From positions 1 through 40,184 of the forward strand of contig JALQYK010000002.1 in NCBI GenBank assembly GCA_023254115.1: 40,184 bases of DNA. The letters are read 5' to 3'. Each line of letters begins with the position of its first letter. The first letter of the stretch is position 1. The notes beneath the pieces are model-generated. The model was not told where the DNA came from, searched no databases, and saw nothing but the letters and a program-made list of their open reading frames with translations. Made by a program: the position numbers and the translations under genes. Origin of the DNA: Polynucleobacter sp. (GTDB lineage Bacteria > Pseudomonadota > Gammaproteobacteria > Burkholderiales > Burkholderiaceae). Positions 19,278 to 38,990 of the stretch are shown in pieces.

Positions 19278-20423
19278 TTAATCTGGGATAGTGATATCAG
19301 ATGTGCCAATGCAGACCAAACGTGGCGATTCTCTAGAAGTATCAATACAACCGCCTTGGTCATAAACACCTTTAGGATCACGGTAGCGCATCATCCGCTC
19401 GATGATCATCTTGTACGCCTGTGGATCATTCATCGATTGAGTCACACACGACTCAACAATGGATTCATTCATCTGTAACTCACCATGGGCATCAAGGTAA
19501 GCACCATCTTTCCAGTGATATACCTCTACGCATTTTGTTTCAAGAGTGAATGGCTGATCTCGTTTCCAAAAATTGGTAAATAAGTTATGGCCTAGATAGA
19601 TAACCCATGAACCTTCATAGCCAGAAATATCAGAAGAACGGTCATCGGGGTTACGGAACCAAACACGATCACCCGGAACGTAATACTTCATGGGGAATGG
19701 ATTCTCTAACGAACCATATTCTTTTAAAAATACCTCATGAAACTCACCAGAACGAATCGCCCTGTTCTCTGAGCGTTCTTCTAGTCGCTTTAATAAATCC
19801 GGGTTGGCGTTTTTTAGTTCTCTGGCAATACTAAGAAGAATGACGTACTCAGTAGCTCTGTAGCAAGAAAAAGAGTAAGCCTGATGAATATCCTCAGGCT
19901 GAGTGGCTTTCACCAAGGCATCAATGATAGATTTGCCTTTGTTGAGCAAAAAACCAGCCTCTTCATCGTAATGCCAGTAATCAGTCGGACGCTCGGCAGC
20001 TTCAGTATCAAAATTCAAAGCAGCACGATAACCAGCATCTACAACGTAATGCCTGATATGAATCGCTGAGATCAGCTCTTCGTAGCTTGGGAATGTAAAA
20101 GGAATGGTCGCCAACAACATGGCTACCAAAATTTCTTTATCTAAATCATCTTTATTGTTACGGCCATCGATGGACATCCTCTCATATAAGCGAGTGGTAT
20201 CCCAATTAGGTGCCCATTGATCTTTATATGATTGTTTTAGAAAGAAATGGTTGCAATAGACGCCATTAGCTTGAGAGCCATGATGACTAACACAATCCCA
20301 CAAAGAATATCTTTGCAGATGCTCCTGCATTTTTTGCAGATTTGTCATCTGATCTTGCTGCGTTTTTAATACAAACTCAATACCGCGCGTTTCAAAAGGA
20401 ATATTCAATTGAGTCGCACTCAT
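19278..20423 (-). CDS. Protein-glutamine gamma-glutamyltransferase (Bacillus Tgl)-like protein in cyanophycin operon
   Basis: Similarity from memory to B. subtilis Tgl: DYWHYDEEAGFLLNKGKSIIDAL...YSFSCYRATEYVILLSIA (Cys187), ...GDRVWFRNPDDRSSDISGYEGSWVIYLG. About 100-aa N-terminal extension. Confidence 0.65.
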   Translation of the reverse strand: MSATQLNIPFETRGIEFVLKTQQDQMTNLQKMQEHLQRYSLWDCVSHHGSQANGVYCNHFFLKQSYKDQWAPNWDTTRLYERMSIDGRNNKDDLDKEILVAMLLATIPFTFPSYEELISAIHIRHYVVDAGYRAALNFDTEAAERPTDYWHYDEEAGFLLNKGKSIIDALVKATQPEDIHQAYSFSCYRATEYVILLSIARELKNANPDLLKRLEERSENRAIRSGEFHEVFLKEYGSLENPFPMKYYVPGDRVWFRNPDDRSSDISGYEGSWVIYLGHNLFTNFWKRDQPFTLETKCVEVYHWKDGAYLDAHGELQMNESIVESCVTQSMNDPQAYKMIIERMMRYRDPKGVYDQGGCIDTSRESPRLVCIGTSDITIPD

Positions 20424-20432
20424 GATTTTGCC

Positions 20433-20900
20433 TTATAGAAAACGATCTAAAAGACGGCGACTATGTTTGTCTAAAGCCTGAATATCTTGTATCAGATATT
20501 GCACACCATGGGTATCAGAGACTAGGTACATGGTTTTGTTTACTCGCCGTATATCCTCTTCGCCACGCAAAATAAATTGCGTAGGACCACGATTTGTTTT
20601 AACAGTCCAGGTACTTGGCGTAGCAAATGTTGAGACGTTTTCAATACCAGTCAATACTGGCATGAACTCTCGGCTCGCCAGCTCTTCATTAATCAACAGT
20701 TGATTAGAGGGCGTAGCCTGATCCAAAGAATCTAACCAAACCAACTCATGACCATCACGATCCACAATCGCAATTGACTCGTTGGGGTAACTAATTGGAA
20801 ATGCTCTAACTGGTACCACTTGCTCATGAGTCACCCCTGCTTGATCTTGCAAACAAAGATAACCAAAAGAATTTCTACTCAAGCTGAATGTATTAGCCAT
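20433..20900 (-). CDS. DUF1854 family protein (cyanophycin-cluster associated)
   Basis: 155 aa, RDGHELVWLDSLDQ...RGPTQFILRGEEDIRRV...LVSDTHGVQYLIQDIQALDKHSRRLLDRFL; overlaps the ABC transporter gene stop. Confidence 0.82.
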   Translation of the reverse strand: MANTFSLSRNSFGYLCLQDQAGVTHEQVVPVRAFPISYPNESIAIVDRDGHELVWLDSLDQATPSNQLLINEELASREFMPVLTGIENVSTFATPSTWTVKTNRGPTQFILRGEEDIRRVNKTMYLVSDTHGVQYLIQDIQALDKHSRRLLDRFL

Positions 20901-23193
20901 GCGTTACTCCCAACTCAGCATCCACAGCATCCATGGCTTGCCTTGCCTGCGTATCGTACATCCGACGATATACACCTTGCAACGCCATTAACTGGTCATG
21001 ACCACCCTCTTCAATGACTTCACCCTTATCAAGCACAATCAAGCGATCTGCCTTGCGCAAAGTTGATAGGCGGTGCGCAATAGCAATGGTTGTGCGGCCC
21101 TTCACCAAATTATCTAGAGCTTTTTGAATTTCTTTTTCAGTCGTACTATCCACAGAGGATGTCGCTTCATCCAAAATCAAAATCTGGGGGTCAATCAATA
21201 GAGCTCTCGCAATCGAAATACGCTGACGCTCACCACCTGACAATGATTGGCCACGTTCACCCACCAAAGAATCGTAACCATGTGGCAAACGCAAAATAAA
21301 TTCATGCGCATGAGCAGCTCTTGCAGCGGCGATTACTTCAGCGCGGGTCGCCCCCGGCTTTCCATAAGCAATATTTTCAGCAATAGTGCCAAAAAATAAG
21401 AATGGTTCTTGCAACACCAAACCGATATGACGACGATAGTCAGCCACAGCGATCGAACGAATATCCACACCATCTAACTTGATTGTGCCTTCGGCCGCAT
21501 CATAGAAACGACAAATCAAGTTCACCAAAGTGCTCTTGCCTGAGCCACTATGACCAACCAAACCAATCATTTCTCCTGGCGTAATTTGTAGATTAATACC
21601 ACGAGTCACCGAGCGATTGCCGTAGCGGAAACCAACGTTCTGCAACTCAATTCTGCCCTCAACTTTATTTAGCTTAATCGGATTAGCTGGCTCTGGAACA
21701 CTAGAGACGTGATCCAAAATATCAAAGATACGCTTTGCACCTGTTGCCGCTTGCTGAGTGAACGACACAATACGACTCATAGAATCTAAACGCGTATAAA
21801 AACGACCGATATACGCCAAACAAGCAGTCAACATACCCACTGTGATGGAGTCATGTGAAATCTGCCAAATACCAAATGCCCAAACTACTAACAAACCAAT
21901 TTCCGTGAGCAAAGTAATGGTTGGCGAGAATAAAGCCCAGACTTTATTCACACGGTCATTAACTGCCAAATTATGTTGATTGGCCAAACGAAAACGTTCT
22001 GTCTCGCGCTCCTCTTGAGCAAATGCTTTAACCACTCGCACACCAGGAATCGTGTCAGCTAAAACGCTGGTCACTTCTGACCAAATACGGTCAATTTTTT
22101 CAAAACCGTAACGCAACTTGTCGCGCACCACATGAATCGCCCAACCAATGAACGGTAATGGTGTCAAAGTCACTAGAGCCAACCATGGATCAATAGACAC
22201 CAAGATGACTGCAGTCATCAAGATCATCAGTACGTCTGTTGCGAAATCTAATAAATGTAAAGACAGGAATAAACAAATACGATCAGATTCCGAACCAATA
22301 CGAGCCATCAAATCACCGGTTCGCTTACCGCCGAAATATTCTAGGGATAACTTCATCAAGTGTTGATACGTGCTAGTTCTCAAATCAGCACCAATCCGCT
22401 CACTCACCAAAGCCAAGATATATGTTTTTGCCCAACCCAAACCCCAGGCAAGAAGTGCCGCAAGAAATAAGGCTCCCAAATAAAATGCTGTTAACTCGTA
22501 GTTAATTGGTTGACCACTTTGATATGGCAACAAAATGTCATCCATCAATGGCATTGTTAAATATGGAGGCACCAAGGTAGCTGCCGTTGAAGCCAAAGTT
22601 AACAAGAAGCCAGCGAACAATTGCCCTTGATAAGGTTTTGCGAAACGCCACAATCTAAACAATGTCCAAGTAGATGGTGGAGTTAGATTTTCTGAGGTAC
22701 ACGCAGGACACTCATCTTGATCCGGCGGTAATGGCACCCAACAACTTGGACACAATGGTTGCGTTTGCTCTAAACCATTATCTAACTCGTGACCCATTGA
22801 TTTAGCAAACTCAATTTTGTATTGCTGCAAGAGTCGATTAGCAATTGGATTTTGAGCTAAAGTAAAACGCCACAAAGCCAAGCGCCCCCCTTGATTGAAC
22901 AACTCAAGACTGGCAACACCTGCATGATCATGCAAGTGAAGTTTTAGATCATCAGCAAAGTTCCAATAGTTCCATTTGTTTGGATCTTGAGCAGTTAATA
23001 CATCATGCTGATTGTCAAAAGCAATTAGGCCTTGATTGGTTAAACAAACCAATCCGCTAGAAAACTGTAATTGCTGATTTAAATCTAGCTCAAGAGCTAA
23101 GATCACCTCTTCGCCAGATCTCAAAATCAATGGCAAAGCATCACGCCAATGATTGGCTAAACGGTCAATAAGGCTAGAGTCTGGAGAGGTCAA
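20893..23193 (-). CDS. ABC exporter (fused TM-ATPase) with N-terminal PH-like region and zinc-ribbon motif; cyanophycin-cluster associated
   Basis: Walker A GHSGSGKST, LSGGERQR, LILDEATSSVD; N-terminal CPSC-x10-CPAC. TTG start at 23193. Confidence 0.9.
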   Translation of the reverse strand: MTSPDSSLIDRLANHWRDALPLILRSGEEVILALELDLNQQLQFSSGLVCLTNQGLIAFDNQHDVLTAQDPNKWNYWNFADDLKLHLHDHAGVASLELFNQGGRLALWRFTLAQNPIANRLLQQYKIEFAKSMGHELDNGLEQTQPLCPSCWVPLPPDQDECPACTSENLTPPSTWTLFRLWRFAKPYQGQLFAGFLLTLASTAATLVPPYLTMPLMDDILLPYQSGQPINYELTAFYLGALFLAALLAWGLGWAKTYILALVSERIGADLRTSTYQHLMKLSLEYFGGKRTGDLMARIGSESDRICLFLSLHLLDFATDVLMILMTAVILVSIDPWLALVTLTPLPFIGWAIHVVRDKLRYGFEKIDRIWSEVTSVLADTIPGVRVVKAFAQEERETERFRLANQHNLAVNDRVNKVWALFSPTITLLTEIGLLVVWAFGIWQISHDSITVGMLTACLAYIGRFYTRLDSMSRIVSFTQQAATGAKRIFDILDHVSSVPEPANPIKLNKVEGRIELQNVGFRYGNRSVTRGINLQITPGEMIGLVGHSGSGKSTLVNLICRFYDAAEGTIKLDGVDIRSIAVADYRRHIGLVLQEPFLFFGTIAENIAYGKPGATRAEVIAAARAAHAHEFILRLPHGYDSLVGERGQSLSGGERQRISIARALLIDPQILILDEATSSVDSTTEKEIQKALDNLVKGRTTIAIAHRLSTLRKADRLIVLDKGEVIEEGGHDQLMALQGVYRRMYDTQARQAMDAVDAELGVTHG

Positions 23194-23282: not shown

Positions 23283-23347
23283 CCAAAAACTGTCCAAATC
23301 GTTATACGACAAAGTACAATTAGGTATTTTTGGCACTTCCGGCCCGC

Positions 23348-25498
23348 ATGAGTAAAAAAACTATAGAAATCATAGATATAAAGGTCCTAAAAGGACCCAG
23401 TATGTGGACCTATCGCCCCGTGCTTGAAGCATGGGTAGACATTGGCGATCTAGAAGACTGCCCATCTAACACTATTCCTGGATTCACTGAGCGTCTTTGT
23501 GCTTGGTTACCTACTTTGATAGAACATCGTTGCAGTTATGGTGAGCGCGGTGGCTTTATCAAGCGTTTAGAAGAAGGCACTTGGCCTGCTCACATTCTTG
23601 AGCATGTAACCCTTGAATTACAAAATTTGGCCGGCATGCCTGGCGGCTTTGGTAAAGCACGCGAAACCAATAAACGTGGCGTTTATAAAGTAGTGGTTCG
23701 CGCATGGCACGAAAAGATCACAGAAACTGCGTTGTATCACGCTCGTGATTTGGTCATGGCAGCCATTGAAAATAAACCGTTTGATGTGCCTGCAGCCATC
23801 AAAGAAATCGAAGACATGGTCGATAGCCTGTACTTGGGACCAAGTACAGGTTGCATCGTTGATGCTGCCCGCGAAAAAAGAATCCCATCGATACGCTTGT
23901 CTGAAGGCAACTTGGTTCAACTCGGCTACGGCAATCAACAACGCCGCATTTGGACCGCAGAAACAGATTTAACCAGCGCCATTGCAGAAGGTATTTCTAG
24001 AGATAAAGATTTGACCAAGTCTTTATTAGCATCTTGTGGTGTACCAGTACCCGAGGGTCGCATGGTTGAAAGCCCTAGTGATGCATGGGAAGCCGCACAA
24101 GATATTGGTGGGCCAGTGGTAGTAAAGCCTTACGACGGCAATCATGCGCGTGGCGTCTTCACTAACTTAACCACTCAAGAAGAAATTGAAAAAGCCTATG
24201 ATGACGCCTTAAATGAAGGTAGCGGCCTGATGGTGGAGCGTTACATCCCCGGCAACGAACATCGCTTGTTAGTGGTTGGCAAAAAAGTTGTCGCGGCCGC
24301 TAAAGGTGAATCTGCCTGGGCTATTGGTGATGGCAAGCGCACGATTCGTCAACTGATTGAAGAAGAAATCAATACAGACCCGCGCCGAGGTGATGCGGAG
24401 ATATTGCCGCTCAGTCCAGTGGTATTTGATACCAAACTAGAAATTGAATTATCAAGACAAAAATTAACGCTTGACTCAGTGCCTGCTGTAGGTCAGCAGG
24501 TATTGGTTCAGGGTTCTGGCAATATGGCTTTTGAAGTCACGCACCTCGTTCACCCAGAAGTTGCAGCGCAAGCAGCGCTCGCCGCCAGAGTGATCGGTTT
24601 GGATATTGCGGGTATTGACTTGGTGGCAGAAGATATTTCTAGACCACTTGAAGAACAAGGTGGCGCGATTGTTGAAGTAAATGCTGGCCCTGGCCTGATC
24701 ATGCATTTGAAACCTGCGGTGGGAGAACCTCAACCAGTCGGCGCAGCAATTGTTGAGCATTTATTCCCCAACCATACAGATGGCCGAATTCCGATTGTTG
24801 GGGTAACGGGTTCACGCGGCAAAACCATGGTGGCACAACTCACCACTCATCTTATGCAACTCACCGGCATGAAAGTAGGCCTTGCTTGCAGCAAAGGCGC
24901 TTACTTCAATCAGCGTTTACAAACACCTGGCAATTGCGCTAACTGGACCAGCGGTAACCGCATTTTGTTAAACCGCCAAGTAGAAGCCGCCGTTTTTGAA
25001 AACGACAGTCGCACCATCTTGAATGAAGGCTTAGCCTATGACCGTTGCGCTGTTGGCATTGTGACCAACCTTGATCCAACTGACACTGTTCCAGAGTGCT
25101 CCATCACCGAACCAGAACAAATTTATAACGTCATGCGCACTCAAGTCGACGTAGTGTTACCAACAGGTGCTGCAGTCTTAAATGCTGACGATGAAGCTGT
25201 TGCAAAAATGGCAGAGCTTTCAGATGGTGAAGTAATTTTCTTCAGTAAACATGGTTTAAATGACATCACTCAGAGCCATCTTGCGAAAGGCGGCAAAGCG
25301 GTGTTTACTGAAAATGACACCATTGTTCTTGCTCAAGGCAAAGAACAAGATCGATTAATTCGTATTGCAAGCATTCCTCTTTTGCAATCAAGTAGCAAAG
25401 CAAACACCTTAGAAAGCGTGCTTGCTGCAGTTGCTGCAGTTTGGGCGTTAAATACTCCCAAAGACATTATTGCAACAGGTCTACAAACATATAACTAA
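23348..25498 (+). CDS. Cyanophycin synthetase paralog lacking the C-terminal Mur-ligase domain
   Basis: N-terminal and ATP-grasp regions align with the downstream 854-aa paralog; Mur-ligase P-loop is GSRGKT; ends at IATGLQTYN where the paralog continues. ORF opens at TTG 23330, ATG at 23348. Confidence 0.9.
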   Translation: MSKKTIEIIDIKVLKGPSMWTYRPVLEAWVDIGDLEDCPSNTIPGFTERLCAWLPTLIEHRCSYGERGGFIKRLEEGTWPAHILEHVTLELQNLAGMPGGFGKARETNKRGVYKVVVRAWHEKITETALYHARDLVMAAIENKPFDVPAAIKEIEDMVDSLYLGPSTGCIVDAAREKRIPSIRLSEGNLVQLGYGNQQRRIWTAETDLTSAIAEGISRDKDLTKSLLASCGVPVPEGRMVESPSDAWEAAQDIGGPVVVKPYDGNHARGVFTNLTTQEEIEKAYDDALNEGSGLMVERYIPGNEHRLLVVGKKVVAAAKGESAWAIGDGKRTIRQLIEEEINTDPRRGDAEILPLSPVVFDTKLEIELSRQKLTLDSVPAVGQQVLVQGSGNMAFEVTHLVHPEVAAQAALAARVIGLDIAGIDLVAEDISRPLEEQGGAIVEVNAGPGLIMHLKPAVGEPQPVGAAIVEHLFPNHTDGRIPIVGVTGSRGKTMVAQLTTHLMQLTGMKVGLACSKGAYFNQRLQTPGNCANWTSGNRILLNRQVEAAVFENDSRTILNEGLAYDRCAVGIVTNLDPTDTVPECSITEPEQIYNVMRTQVDVVLPTGAAVLNADDEAVAKMAELSDGEVIFFSKHGLNDITQSHLAKGGKAVFTENDTIVLAQGKEQDRLIRIASIPLLQSSSKANTLESVLAAVAAVWALNTPKDIIATGLQTYN

Positions 25499-25506
25499 AC
25501 AAGACT

Positions 25507-28071
25507 ATGGAACTAACACGTATCCGCGCACTAAGAGGCCCTAATTTATGGGGCAGACACACTGCTCTAGAAGCTTTGGTGAAGTGCGAAGAGAACGAGA
25601 AAATCATCACTAATATCTCTGGCTTTGAAACTAGATTACGTGAACGCTTCCCACAATTAGGTCCACTAAGATCTTACGGACAAAATGAAACAGTCTCTCT
25701 AGCCCATGCGCTAGAAGTTTGCTCAAGAGACTTACAAGCTCAAGCAGGTTGCCCCGTCACATTCAGCCGCACCATGGCTACCCCTGACGATGGCGTGTAC
25801 ATCGTGGTAGTTGAATACACCGAAGAAAAAGTTGGTCGCCTTGCTCTAGATTTAGCTTTAAAACTATGTCGCTCCGCACTGATTGATAACGGCTCACACT
25901 TAGATGAGTACCTCAAGCAACTTAGAGAACTTGATGAAGATATTCGTTTAGGGCCAAGCACCGGTTCAATTGTTGATGCAGCGATTGCCAGAGGCATCCC
26001 CTACCGCCGCTTAACAGAAGGCAGTATGGTGCAACTTGGATGGGGCAGCAAACAACGTCGCATCCAAGCAGCAGAGACAAGTGTTACCAGTGCGATTGCA
26101 GAATCTATTGCGCAAGACAAGCAACTCACTAAAAACCTGCTACATGCCGCAGGCGTTCCAGTGCCATTAGGTAGCATCGTCACAACAGCTGATGAAGCAT
26201 GGCAGGCTTATTTAGAGATTAATGCGCCCGTTGCCATCAAGCCACGCGATGGCAATCAAGGTAAAGGTGTTGCAGTCAACATCAATACCCGCGAGCAAAT
26301 TGATATTGCATTTAAAGCAGCTTCAGCGATTTCATCTGAAGTGATTGTTGAACGCTATATGCCAGGACATGATCACCGCTTACTCATTATCGGCGGACAA
26401 TTGGTTGCAGCAGCACGCCGCGAACCGCCTTATGTGATTGGTAACAACAAAAATACAGTTCGTGAATTAGTTGAAGAGGTCAATAAAGATCCTCTTCGTG
26501 GTGACGGTCATGCCACATCACTGAGCAAAATACGTATTGATGAGATTGCGATTGCAACACTCAAGAATCAAAATCTAACCCCTGACTCCGTACCACCGAA
26601 AGGGTTACGCGTAACACTACGCAATAATGCCAATTTAAGTACAGGTGGCACAGCAACAGATGTAACAGATGATGTTCATCCTGATTTGGCGGCATCTGCA
26701 GTAGCAGCAGCACAAATGGTGGGCCTTGATATTTGTGGCGTGGATGTGGTTTGTGACAATGTTTATCGCCCTTTAGAAGAACAGGGTGGCGGCATTGTGG
26801 AGGTGAACGCTGCGCCAGGCTTACGCATGCACTTGCACCCTTCTTACGGCAAAGGTCGCCCAGTGGGTGAAGCCATCATTTCTACCATGTTTGGCAAAAA
26901 TGATGATGGTCGCATTCCAGTAGTGGCAGTTACAGGTACGAATGGCAAAACAACCACCGTGAAACTCATGAGCCATTTGTTTGAAAAAAATGGGCTTCGC
27001 GTGGGTCACACAGGTACAGATGGCGTTTACGTTAACGGTCGCCGAATTGATACAGGCGATTGCAGTGGTCCTAAGAGTGCTCGCAATGTCTTAATGCACC
27101 CTGATGTTGATGCAGCAGTTTTAGAAACAGCTCGCGGCGGCATCTTAAGAGAAGGTTTAGGCTTTGATCGTTGCCAAGTCGCGATTGTGACCAACTTGGG
27201 TGAAGGCGATCATCTTGGCATGAACTACATCAACACCGCTGCGGAACTAGCAGCAGTCAAGCGTGTGATTGTGCAAAACGTTGCACCAAATGGCATGGCT
27301 GTATTGAATGCCGCAGACCCTATGGTGGCAAAAATGGCCAAGGTGTGTCCTGCTGAGGTGACCTACTTTGCTAAAGATATCAACCATCCAGTAATGGCTA
27401 AGCATCGCGCTCAAGGTAAACGCGTGGTATTTGTTGATGGCAAAAAGATTGTGGCAGTAGAGGGTAAAAAAGAATTCCACATTGACTTACAACAAGTACC
27501 CATTACTGCGAATGGCACGATTGGCTTCCAAGTTGAAAATGTTTTAGGTGTTGTGGGGGCAGCATGGGCTCTGAATATCAACTGGGACATCATTGCAGAA
27601 GGTCTCAGCTCATTTGTGAGTGACGCTCAAACAGTACCAGGTCGCTTTAATTTATTCCAACACAATGGCGCCACCATTATTGCTGACTACGGCCACAATC
27701 CTGACGCAATCATAGCTTTGTCAGAGACCATCATTAACATGCCGGCTAAGCGTCGCATGGTGGTTATTAGTGGAGCTGGCGATCGTCGCGATGAAGACTT
27801 ACGTCGTCAAACAGAAATCCTAGGCCAATACTTTGATCATGTGATTTTGTATGAGGATCAGTGTCAGCGTGGTCGACCAGATGGTGAAGTAATTGGCATC
27901 ATGCGTGAAGGCTTGAATAACTCAAAACAAGTGAAAAAAATTGAAGAGTTTCATGGTGAGTTTTTAGCGATCGATAAAGCCTTGGCACAAATATCTGCAG
28001 AAGACATCTGCTTGATTCTTGTGGATCAAGTCGAAGAAGCTTTAGCTCATATTGCTAAAAGCGTTAAATAA
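25507..28071 (+). CDS. cphA: Cyanophycin synthetase (full length)
   Basis: 854 aa, ATP-grasp plus Mur-ligase P-loop GTNGKTT, C-terminal DYGHNPDAI and GAGDRRDEDLR motifs. Confidence 0.95.
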   Translation: MELTRIRALRGPNLWGRHTALEALVKCEENEKIITNISGFETRLRERFPQLGPLRSYGQNETVSLAHALEVCSRDLQAQAGCPVTFSRTMATPDDGVYIVVVEYTEEKVGRLALDLALKLCRSALIDNGSHLDEYLKQLRELDEDIRLGPSTGSIVDAAIARGIPYRRLTEGSMVQLGWGSKQRRIQAAETSVTSAIAESIAQDKQLTKNLLHAAGVPVPLGSIVTTADEAWQAYLEINAPVAIKPRDGNQGKGVAVNINTREQIDIAFKAASAISSEVIVERYMPGHDHRLLIIGGQLVAAARREPPYVIGNNKNTVRELVEEVNKDPLRGDGHATSLSKIRIDEIAIATLKNQNLTPDSVPPKGLRVTLRNNANLSTGGTATDVTDDVHPDLAASAVAAAQMVGLDICGVDVVCDNVYRPLEEQGGGIVEVNAAPGLRMHLHPSYGKGRPVGEAIISTMFGKNDDGRIPVVAVTGTNGKTTTVKLMSHLFEKNGLRVGHTGTDGVYVNGRRIDTGDCSGPKSARNVLMHPDVDAAVLETARGGILREGLGFDRCQVAIVTNLGEGDHLGMNYINTAAELAAVKRVIVQNVAPNGMAVLNAADPMVAKMAKVCPAEVTYFAKDINHPVMAKHRAQGKRVVFVDGKKIVAVEGKKEFHIDLQQVPITANGTIGFQVENVLGVVGAAWALNINWDIIAEGLSSFVSDAQTVPGRFNLFQHNGATIIADYGHNPDAIIALSETIINMPAKRRMVVISGAGDRRDEDLRRQTEILGQYFDHVILYEDQCQRGRPDGEVIGIMREGLNNSKQVKKIEEFHGEFLAIDKALAQISAEDICLILVDQVEEALAHIAKSVK

Positions 28072-35158: not shown

Positions 35159-35193
35159 AAGAATAAAGCCTTTGAGGCAATATACTTGTGTTT

Positions 35194-36624
35194 ATGGCAG
35201 ATTTAGACAAAAACAAGAATTCTTTAGACAACAAAGACCAAGCATGGTCGGCTCGTTTTGCCGAGCCTGTAGCGGAACTCGTACAACGATATACCGCTTC
35301 TGTTGATTTTGATAAACGCATGGCTTTGGTAGATATCCAAGGCTCTTTGGCTCATGCCGAGATGTTAGCTGCACAAAAAATTATCAGTGCAGATGACTTA
35401 GCCCAGATCCAAAAAGGCATGGCTCAGATACGCTCTGAAATTGAAGCAGGTTCTTTTGTATGGGAACTCGCCCTTGAAGACGTACACCTGAATATCGAAG
35501 CGCGCCTCACTAAATTAGTTGGCGATGCAGGTAAACGTCTACACACTGGTCGCTCACGCAATGACCAAGTCGCCACAGATATCCGCTTGTGGTTACGCGG
35601 TGCAATTGATGAAATCCAAACAGAATTAACGTCGCTACGCACTGGCTTATTAGGTTTAGCAGAAAAGCATGCCGAAACAATCATGCCCGGCTTTACTCAT
35701 TTGCAAGTAGCCCAACCCATTACCTTTGGCCATCACGTGATGGCCTACGCTGAAATGTTTGCGCGTGATGCTGAGCGTTTAGCTGATTGCCGCAAACGTG
35801 TGAATCGTTTACCCCTAGGTGCCGCTGCTCTTGCGGGAACTAGCTATCCGATTGATCGCGAACGCGTTGCTAAGACTCTTGGGTTTGAAGGTGTTTGCCA
35901 AAACTCATTAGACGCAGTCTCTGATCGCGACTTTGCTATTGAGTTCTGCGCCACAGCCTCATTAGTGATGACGCATATCTCACGTTTATCAGAAGAATTG
36001 ATTCTTTGGATGAGCCCACGCGTTGGCTTTATTGATTTACCAGATCGCTTCTGCACTGGTAGCTCCATCATGCCGCAAAAGAAAAACCCAGATGTTCCAG
36101 AATTGGCACGTGGCAAAACAGGTCGCGTGAATGGCAATTTGATTTCTTTATTAACTTTGATGAAAGGCCAACCATTGGCTTACAACAAAGATAACCAAGA
36201 AGATAAAGAGCCTTTATTTGATTCCGCAGATACGCTACGCGACACGTTGCGCATTTTTGCTGATATGGTGCCTCACATCCAAGTAAAAGCAGATGTGATG
36301 CGCGCAGCCGCACTTCAAGGTTTTGCTACAGCCACTGATCTTGCTGATTACTTGGTAAAAAAAGGTTTACCTTTCCGTGACGCTCATGAAGCTGTTGCGC
36401 ACGCTGTTAAAGCATGCTCTAACAAAGGTTGCGATTTGGCAGATCTATCGCTAGCAGATTTGCAAGCAGCTTGCGACCTTGGCGATAAAGCCAAATTAAT
36501 TGGCGATGATGTTTTTAGCTTCCTAACACTCGAAGGTTCTGTGAATAGTCGTAACCACACAGGTGGCACCGCTCCTGAACAAGTGAAGAAAGCAATTGCC
36601 ACTTACCGCAAGAATCTTAAGTAA
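35194..36624 (+). CDS. argH: Argininosuccinate lyase
   Basis: [46 protein letters not shown] opens at GTG 35188, ATG at 35194. Confidence 0.96.
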
Positions 36625-36740: not shown

Positions 36741-38990
36741 TTAGTCTTTAACGCAGTCCACGTAGTACTCTTTGCGACCATTGAGATCTCCCTTGACCAA
36801 ACCATGTACATCGGTTTCAAAGCCAGGGAACTGCTCATTGAAGTCACGTGTGAAGCGCAAGTAATCAACAATGCGCTTGTTAAAGCGCTCACCCGGAATC
36901 AACAAAGGGATACCTGGCGGGTATGGCGTTACCAACATAGCTGTCACACGACCTTCTAGTTCATCAATTTGTACGCGTTCAATGTCGCGATGCGCCATCT
37001 TTGCCCAAGCATCCGATGGCTTCATTGCTGGCACCATGTCAGACAAGTACATTTCTGTCGTCATGCGAGCCACATCGTACTTTTTGTAAACCTGATGAAT
37101 CTGTTGACACAAATCTTTTAGACCAATGCGTTCATAGCGTGGATGTTTGGTCACAAACTCAGGAAGAACACGCCACAAAGGTTGGTTCTTGTCGTAATCA
37201 TCTTTGAACTGTTGCAAAGTCGTCACCAAGGTATTCCAACGACCTTTGGTAATACCTATCGTGAACATGATGAAGAATGAATACAAGCCAGTCTTCTCAA
37301 CAATCACGCCATGCTCAGCCAAGTACTTAGTCACAATACTGGCAGGGATACCTGTATCAGCAAAATTACCGTCCATCTCTAAACCTGGAGTAATGACTGT
37401 CGCTTTAATTGGGTCCAACATATTGAAGCCATTAGCCAACTTACCAAAGTCGTGCCAACGCTCATCCGCTTGCAATACCCAATCTTCTCTTTCGCCAATG
37501 CCCTCTTCAGCAAGATACTCTGGGCCCCAAACCTTGAACCACCAATCAGCACCCCACTCTTCATCGACCTTACGCATGGCGCGACGGAAGTCTAAAGACT
37601 CAGCAATTGACTCATGCACCAACGCCGTACCACCAGGAGGCTCCATCATGGCTGCTGCTACGTCACAAGACGCAATAATCGCGTACTGTGGACTAGTTGA
37701 TGTGTGCATCAAATAAGATTCATTAAAGCAATCGTTATCCAATTTATTGGACTCAGAGTCTTGCACCAAGATCTGAGATGCTTGTGATAAACCAGCCAAT
37801 AATTTATGTGTTGATTGAGTTGAGAACACCATGCTCTCTTTAGAGCGTGGACGATCTTTACCAATCGCATGCATATTTTTATAGAAGTCATGGAATGTTG
37901 CGTGTGGCAACCAAGCTTCATCGAAGTGCAAAGTGTCCACCTTGCCATCCAACATTTCTTTGATCATTTCCACGTTGTACAAAACACCGTCATAAGTACT
38001 TTGCGTGATTGTTAAAACACGTGGCTTGGCATTTTTATCAGTAATGAATGGATTGCTCTGAATTTTCTTCTGAATTGTTTTCCAGTCAAACTCTTCTTTA
38101 GGAATTGGACCAATAATGCCGTAGTGATTACGTGTTGGCATCAAGAACACAGGAATCGCTCCTGTCATCATGATGGCATGCAAAATTGACTTATGGCAGT
38201 TACGGTCCACCAAAACGATGTCACCAGGAGCTACTGTTGAGTGCCACACAATTTTGTTCGATGTCGACGTGCCGTTTGTGACAAAGAATAAGTGATCGGC
38301 ATTAAAAATACGCGCCGCATTGCGCTCACTGGCCGCTACCGGGCCTGTATGATCCAACAACTGGCCCAACTCATCCACAGCATTACAGACGTCAGCACGT
38401 AACATGTTCTCACCAAAGAACTGGTGGAACATTTGACCTACCGGGCTCTTCAAGAAAGCCACACCACCAGAGTGGCCTGGGCAGTGCCATGAGTAAGAAC
38501 CGTCAGATGCGTAATGCGTCAAAGCTTTAAAGAACGGTGGCGCCAATGAATCTAGATAAACCTTGGCTTCGCGAATGATGTGGCGCGCCACAAACTCTGG
38601 CGTATCTTCATTCATATGAATAAAGCCATGCAACTCACGCAAAACATCATTTGGAATGTGGCGAGATGTTCTAGTCTCACCATACAAGAAGATTGGAATC
38701 TCTTCATTACGTTTACGTACCTCTACCACGAATGCACGCAAACCTTCTAGGGCCACATCAATCTCTTCTGTCGAACCAGACCCGAATTCTTCATCGTCAA
38801 TTGAGAGGATGAAACAAGAGGCACGAGCAGCCTGTTGAGCGAATGAAGTTAGGTCACCATAACTGGTCAAACCAAGCACTTCCATACCCTCAGTTTCAAT
38901 GGCTTCAGCCAGGGCGCGCGCACCCGAACCTGAGATGTTCTCAGTGCGGAAATCCTCGTCAATAATGACTACTGGAAAGCGAAATTTCAT
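36741..38990 (-). CDS. Orn/Lys/Arg decarboxylase (PLP, fold III, with N-terminal receiver-like wing domain)
   Basis: 749 aa; SWHCPGHSGGVAF, FVTNGTSTSNKIV, HFDEAWLPHATFHDFY, FSTQSTHKLLAGLSQAS (PLP Lys). Confidence 0.93.
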   Translation of the reverse strand: MKFRFPVVIIDEDFRTENISGSGARALAEAIETEGMEVLGLTSYGDLTSFAQQAARASCFILSIDDEEFGSGSTEEIDVALEGLRAFVVEVRKRNEEIPIFLYGETRTSRHIPNDVLRELHGFIHMNEDTPEFVARHIIREAKVYLDSLAPPFFKALTHYASDGSYSWHCPGHSGGVAFLKSPVGQMFHQFFGENMLRADVCNAVDELGQLLDHTGPVAASERNAARIFNADHLFFVTNGTSTSNKIVWHSTVAPGDIVLVDRNCHKSILHAIMMTGAIPVFLMPTRNHYGIIGPIPKEEFDWKTIQKKIQSNPFITDKNAKPRVLTITQSTYDGVLYNVEMIKEMLDGKVDTLHFDEAWLPHATFHDFYKNMHAIGKDRPRSKESMVFSTQSTHKLLAGLSQASQILVQDSESNKLDNDCFNESYLMHTSTSPQYAIIASCDVAAAMMEPPGGTALVHESIAESLDFRRAMRKVDEEWGADWWFKVWGPEYLAEEGIGEREDWVLQADERWHDFGKLANGFNMLDPIKATVITPGLEMDGNFADTGIPASIVTKYLAEHGVIVEKTGLYSFFIMFTIGITKGRWNTLVTTLQQFKDDYDKNQPLWRVLPEFVTKHPRYERIGLKDLCQQIHQVYKKYDVARMTTEMYLSDMVPAMKPSDAWAKMAHRDIERVQIDELEGRVTAMLVTPYPPGIPLLIPGERFNKRIVDYLRFTRDFNEQFPGFETDVHGLVKGDLNGRKEYYVDCVKD

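Follow-up and report, generated by a model that had tools for sequence, protein, structure and literature searches.

Cyanophycin is a nitrogen-storage polymer for which a synthetase, cyanophycinases and dipeptidases are known, and we know of no described enzyme that modifies the polymer after its synthesis. The question raised by the locus described here is whether a protein resembling the Tgl of Bacillus (BsTgl), a spore-coat transglutaminase, and whose gene closes an operon of a cyanophycin cluster, could be such an enzyme, in which case it would be the first. The window, i.e., the whole stretch of 40,184 nucleotides that was analyzed, comes from a freshwater Polynucleobacter relative and contains a complete CphA-CphA'-ABC-DUF1854 cluster, with the gene for the TGL-family protein (TGL) within its operon:

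19278 to 20423, minus strand: TGL-family protein, 381 amino acids (open reading frame, PF20085 match, and AlphaFold2/Foldseek match to 4p8i and 7c9j)
20160 to 20423, minus strand: N-terminal extension of TGL, approximately residues 1 to 88, absent from Bacillus Tgl (PF20085 match from residue 89)
20433 to 20900, minus strand: DUF1854 protein (NF052234, "cyanophycin metabolism-associated")
20893 to 23193, minus strand: ABC exporter (NF052233, "cyanophycin metabolism-associated ABC transporter", 1363 bits against a cut-off of 880)
23330 to 25498, plus strand: cphA' (CphA-like; no match to the Mur ligase C-terminal domain)
25507 to 28071, plus strand: cphA, cyanophycin synthetase (TIGR02068, 967 bits against a cut-off of 850)

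The first-pass annotation of this DNA had described a 381-residue open reading frame ending an ABC exporter-DUF1854 operon, and this is what was found: the frame starts with ATG on the minus strand, the ABC and DUF1854 genes overlap by 8 bp, and 9 bp separate DUF1854 from TGL, a spacing that suggests a single three-gene operon with TGL last, divergent from cphA'-cphA. The closest named relatives of this TGL are from Polynucleobacter, and comparison with one of them (L061, 92% identity) gave a dN of 0.048 and a dS of 1.01. The resulting dN/dS of approximately 0.05 indicates strong purifying selection on the gene. Three other Polynucleobacter genomes (L141, L142, and L143) have a more distant cphA cluster (approximately 65% identity for CphA and 48% for DUF1854) without TGL, and therefore two cluster types exist within this genus. 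A search for plasmid carriage of TGL gave no match.

The stretches of the protein that had been likened to BsTgl are present, and homology was established by the match to PF20085 (TGL), with an E-value of 2.2e-33 and 116 bits against a cut-off of 23.7, which is the sole Pfam match of the protein, and by a single-sequence phmmer match to the Geobacillus Tgl (PDB 7c9j, E=1e-4). All 62 homologs that were scanned match PF20085 as well. The structural comparison proposed earlier also returned a Tgl fold: the AlphaFold2 model, built with 62 sequences, had a pLDDT of 92.9 and a pTM of 0.93, and Foldseek matched it in the PDB to 4p8i (BsTgl, E=7.8e-7) and 7c9j (E=8.8e-7), both with a probability of 1.00, and to nothing else below 0.001; these two entries are the spore-coat Tgl structures solved so far. 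The TGL family is one of the papain-like, NlpC/P60-related families (PMC10318531). Thus, TGL shares with BsTgl (4P8I; PF20085) the Pfam family, the fold, the cysteine (Cys187, equivalent to Cys116), and the conserved PGD...NPD and YLG motifs. Unlike BsTgl, it occurs in an organism without spores, it falls far below the cut-off of the equivalog PRK03187 (30.7 versus 307 bits), and it has an additional N-terminal domain. This extension, put earlier at roughly 100 residues, comprises approximately 85-90 residues before the TGL match. In the AlphaFold2 model, it forms a beta-alpha-beta-beta-alpha domain, for which profile comparison (hhalign) detected no similarity to the N-termini of CphA, CphA', DUF1854, or the ABC protein (probability below 2%).

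Further differences from BsTgl concern the active site, for which the following codons are relevant:

19863 to 19865, minus strand: invariant Cys187 (Cys116 of BsTgl)
19866 to 19868, minus strand: Ser186 (position of BsTgl Glu115, by profile alignment)
19608 to 19610, minus strand: Ser272 (position of BsTgl Glu187, by profile alignment)
19614 to 19616, minus strand: invariant Glu270, proposed replacement catalytic acid

The codon of Cys187 is the one named in the first-pass annotation, which had also correctly read serine at the positions of Glu115 and Glu187. In BsTgl, Cys116 works with Glu187, which is replaceable by Glu115; the E115A, C116A, and H200A mutants are inactive, and the E187A mutant has approximately 60% activity (PMC6490927). 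Conservation of Cys187 among homologs had been set beforehand as a test, and neither Cys187 nor Ser186, Glu270, or Ser272 varied among 71 betaproteobacterial and planctomycete sequences. Glu270, which lies two residues upstream of Ser272, corresponds to Gln in the Geobacillus Tgl. The position of His200 is occupied by Phe285 (Phe in 70 of the 71 sequences), a match for which the alignment was extended past the printed Geobacillus sequence. TGL therefore has neither the catalytic acid of the Bacillus type, Glu187 or Glu115, nor the His200 at the tunnel entrance. Because the E115A and H200A mutants of BsTgl are inactive and both positions are altered in TGL, the chemistry of BsTgl should not be assumed for TGL. 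On the other hand, the acids of BsTgl are uniformly replaced by serine and Glu270 is equally invariant, which argues for a site that was re-tooled rather than decayed. From these alignments, we infer that Glu270, two residues away from the position of BsTgl Glu187, has taken over as the catalytic acid and that TGL and BsTgl act on different substrates. Two candidates for a catalytic histidine were rejected: most planctomycete sequences have Glu in place of His229, and the position of His303 varies, so neither would be essential across the family.

Is the connection with cyanophycin restricted to this window? The counts that follow come from samples in which some genomes are metagenome-assembled genomes (MAGs). 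Among 299 sampled genomes of Burkholderiales, TGL subfamily A was found in 24 and NF052234 in 103. NF052234 was present in 22 of the 24 TGL genomes versus 81 of the 275 others (Fisher, 1.8e-9), and CphA exceeded its cut-off in 23 of the 24, the exception being G154. When genomes were shuffled within families, the 23 co-occurrences of TGL and CphA compared with an expected 18 (P=9e-4). A phylum-wide sample of 399 genomes contained four with TGL, all of them Burkholderiales carrying the cluster. The linkage to cyanophycin genes that the neighborhood comparison was to look for is recurrent: 28 of 80 named TGL loci lie within 10 kb of a cyanophycin cluster, in five places on the TGL tree and in four arrangements. 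TGL follows DUF1854 on the same strand in Polynucleobacter and Thiobacillus, it is convergent with the cyanophycin cluster in Alcaligenaceae, the order is cphA'-cphA-acyltransferase-TGL in Comamonadaceae, and in Sulfuricellaceae (L086) the order is cphA'-cphA-TGL with a 4-bp overlap. Where TGL is unlinked, 43 of 50 genomes carried NF052234, and five of the other seven, all MAGs, had CphA. TGL was found in only 22 of the 103 Burkholderiales clusters, approximately a fifth, and it is thus an accessory of the cyanophycin cluster that is not universal.

The same association was observed in a second phylum. In 120 genomes from the planctomycete order to which L095 belongs, TGL occurred in 15, all of which had DUF1854, compared with 25 of the 105 others (Fisher, 8.5e-9), and all of which had CphA; none of 20 DUF1854-free genomes tested had CphA. 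As in Burkholderiales, TGL was found in a minority, 15 of 40, of the DUF1854-bearing genomes. The planctomycete TGL, cphA, and DUF1854 genes are dispersed, and they are far apart where contigs are long enough (e.g., G744), so tight linkage does not explain their joint retention. However, the two phyla do not count as entirely separate evidence, because the planctomycete sequences nest inside the betaproteobacterial ones on the TGL tree, a topology that points to transfer of TGL between Planctomycetes and Betaproteobacteria.

A TGL gene that tracks cyanophycin genes in two phyla points to an enzyme of cyanophycin metabolism that has not been described before, and TGL is probably an active enzyme working in this metabolism. 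Most likely, it would be a cytosolic thiol acyl-transfer enzyme that acts on cyanophycin or on a granule protein through transamidation or isopeptide cleavage. As an overall explanation, a cytosolic TGL-family cysteine enzyme that serves as an accessory of the CphA-CphA'-ABC-DUF1854 system and acts by such a mechanism appears on balance likely. Cys187 would attack the amide of a side chain and thereby become acylated through a thioester, Glu270 would assume the acid role of Glu187/Glu115 in BsTgl, and the acyl group would then be passed to an amine or, less often, to water. Transfer to an amine would join parts of cyanophycin to each other, or cyanophycin to a granule or anchoring protein, through an isopeptide link, and the outcome could be a crosslink, an anchor, or an exchange of side chains. 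It is quite possible, if tentative, that transamidation or crosslinking is the main reaction. The changes at the acid positions, the replacement of His200, and the domain added at the N-terminus point away from Gln/Lys protein pairs as the substrate, and the beta-Asp-Arg side chains are a plausible alternative. More speculatively, a TGL fold with a Ser-Cys / Glu-x-Ser site might make or break beta-aspartyl isopeptide links, which would provide some Betaproteobacteria and Planctomycetes with crosslinked, anchored, or remodelled cyanophycin or with a second, non-S51 route for opening the polymer.

Alternatively, TGL could be a thiol isopeptidase, i.e., an unrecognized cyanophycinase that cuts the backbone or the beta-Asp-Arg side-chain bonds and helps to mobilize cyanophycin in bacteria without CphB. 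Of 903 betaproteobacterial cphA1 genomes surveyed in a 2023 study, only 2.8% had a recognizable cyanophycinase, and unknown isozymes were proposed (PMC10206079); betaproteobacterial cphA genomes were also found elsewhere to have cyanophycinase rarely (PMC5178258). Consistent with this alternative, no cyanophycinase was detected at E<0.001 in 22 of the 24 Burkholderiales TGL genomes, some lineages have TGL within the cphA operon, and papain-like cysteine folds hydrolyze amides. TGL is not a member of the S51-type peptidases (its Pfam match is to TGL only) and is unrelated in fold and nucleophile to CphB, CphE, and CphI, with which it could nevertheless share a substrate if it were an isopeptidase. 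However, betaproteobacterial clusters with and without TGL alike lack cyanophycinase, and most of them have neither CphB nor TGL, which implies another means of degrading cyanophycin there; Planctomycetes carry S51/cyanophycinase-family genes whether or not they have TGL. TGL therefore does not track the loss of cyanophycinase and is not simply the missing betaproteobacterial enzyme. A role as the universal missing cyanophycinase is rejected by this distribution, and the isopeptidase reading as a whole seems unlikely. The degradation variant of the first-pass proposal is weakened for the same reasons, i.e., the presence of TGL in 22 of 103 clusters and the independence of cyanophycinase from TGL. 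An accessory modifying role is thus preferred over plain replacement.

Two further explanations would deprive TGL of activity or of its connection with cyanophycin. Replacement of His200 and of both acids of BsTgl might reflect a catalytically dead protein, with the TGL fold retained for a scaffolding or regulatory function through binding of cyanophycin or of a protein of the cluster. The nucleophile is usually lost in dead enzymes, yet here the cysteine is kept across both phyla and in the distant subfamily B, a new invariant Glu and Ser occupy the same loop, and the low dN/dS also speaks against decay, which makes this explanation improbable. The association with cyanophycin could also have arisen incidentally, through shared ancestry or co-transfer, with TGL acting on unrelated proteins, as might be suggested by the unlinked position of TGL at most loci, its patchy occurrence among clusters, and its presence in G154 without cphA. 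Shared ancestry does not readily account for the within-family excess, for five linked lineages with differing arrangements, or for the co-retention of dispersed genes in Planctomycetes; the G154 copy, moreover, is only a contig-end fragment and is the sole subfamily A row with Ala at position 186. We therefore regard an incidental association as very improbable, and an active accessory enzyme of the cyanophycin system is retained as the preferred reading.

Some parts of this picture were already known, namely the TGL family and its fold and the NCBIfam names that associate DUF1854 and the ABC exporter with cyanophycin. NCBIfam and the papers searched name the CphA-CphA'-ABC-DUF1854 cluster without a TGL member, and the open-access literature searched contained no report of a TGL-cyanophycin association and no paper mentioning DUF1854. 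The titles and abstracts of open-access papers containing both "transglutaminase" and "cyanophycin" indicated no link between the two, and in one such paper the terms occur separately. As far as this literature was searched, the TGL member, its invariant Ser-Cys / Glu-x-Ser site, and the co-occurrence in two phyla are new. For the gap in betaproteobacterial cyanophycin metabolism, a cysteine enzyme that is conserved and accompanies the cluster in two phyla offers a concrete protein to assay. If TGL modifies the polymer, it could be useful for cyanophycin materials, and the TGL family, in a version with a rebuilt active site, would no longer be confined to spore coats.

Several other genes may be related to cyanophycin. 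About one in three Burkholderiales genomes has DUF1854 and the ABC exporter, which accompany cphA in the absence of cyanophycinase; in Planctomycetes, DUF1854 likewise occurs together with cphA. Burkholderiales also have a second group of TGL-like proteins, subfamily B (L034-L040 and L044:18733-19899), which is very distant from subfamily A and has apparent signal peptides. In four sequences, it keeps Cys, Glu270, and Ser272 but has Gly at position 186, i.e., a Gly-Cys motif. NF052234 was present in all eight subfamily B genomes (P=1.6e-4), and no linkage of subfamily B to a cyanophycin cluster was found; it is possibly an exported counterpart of TGL. Furthermore, a membrane acyltransferase gene (PF01757, Acyl_transf_3; Pfam-confirmed in four cases) recurrently adjoins TGL in Betaproteobacteria (L113, L115, L120, L124, L138, L080, and L133) and in Planctomycetes (L095, L160, L161, L163, L164, and L165), and it is the gene located between cphA and TGL in Comamonadaceae. 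The same acyltransferase profile adjoins cphA (G049 and G233), a cphA-like gene (G785 and G820), and a cyanophycinase-family gene (G102), and the acyltransferase may be another unnamed cyanophycin accessory. In the window itself, open reading frames that by eye resemble argininosuccinate lyase (35188-36624) and a large Orn/Lys/Arg decarboxylase (36741-38990) are located within 11 kb of cphA, and the supply and use of arginine may thus be grouped around this gene.
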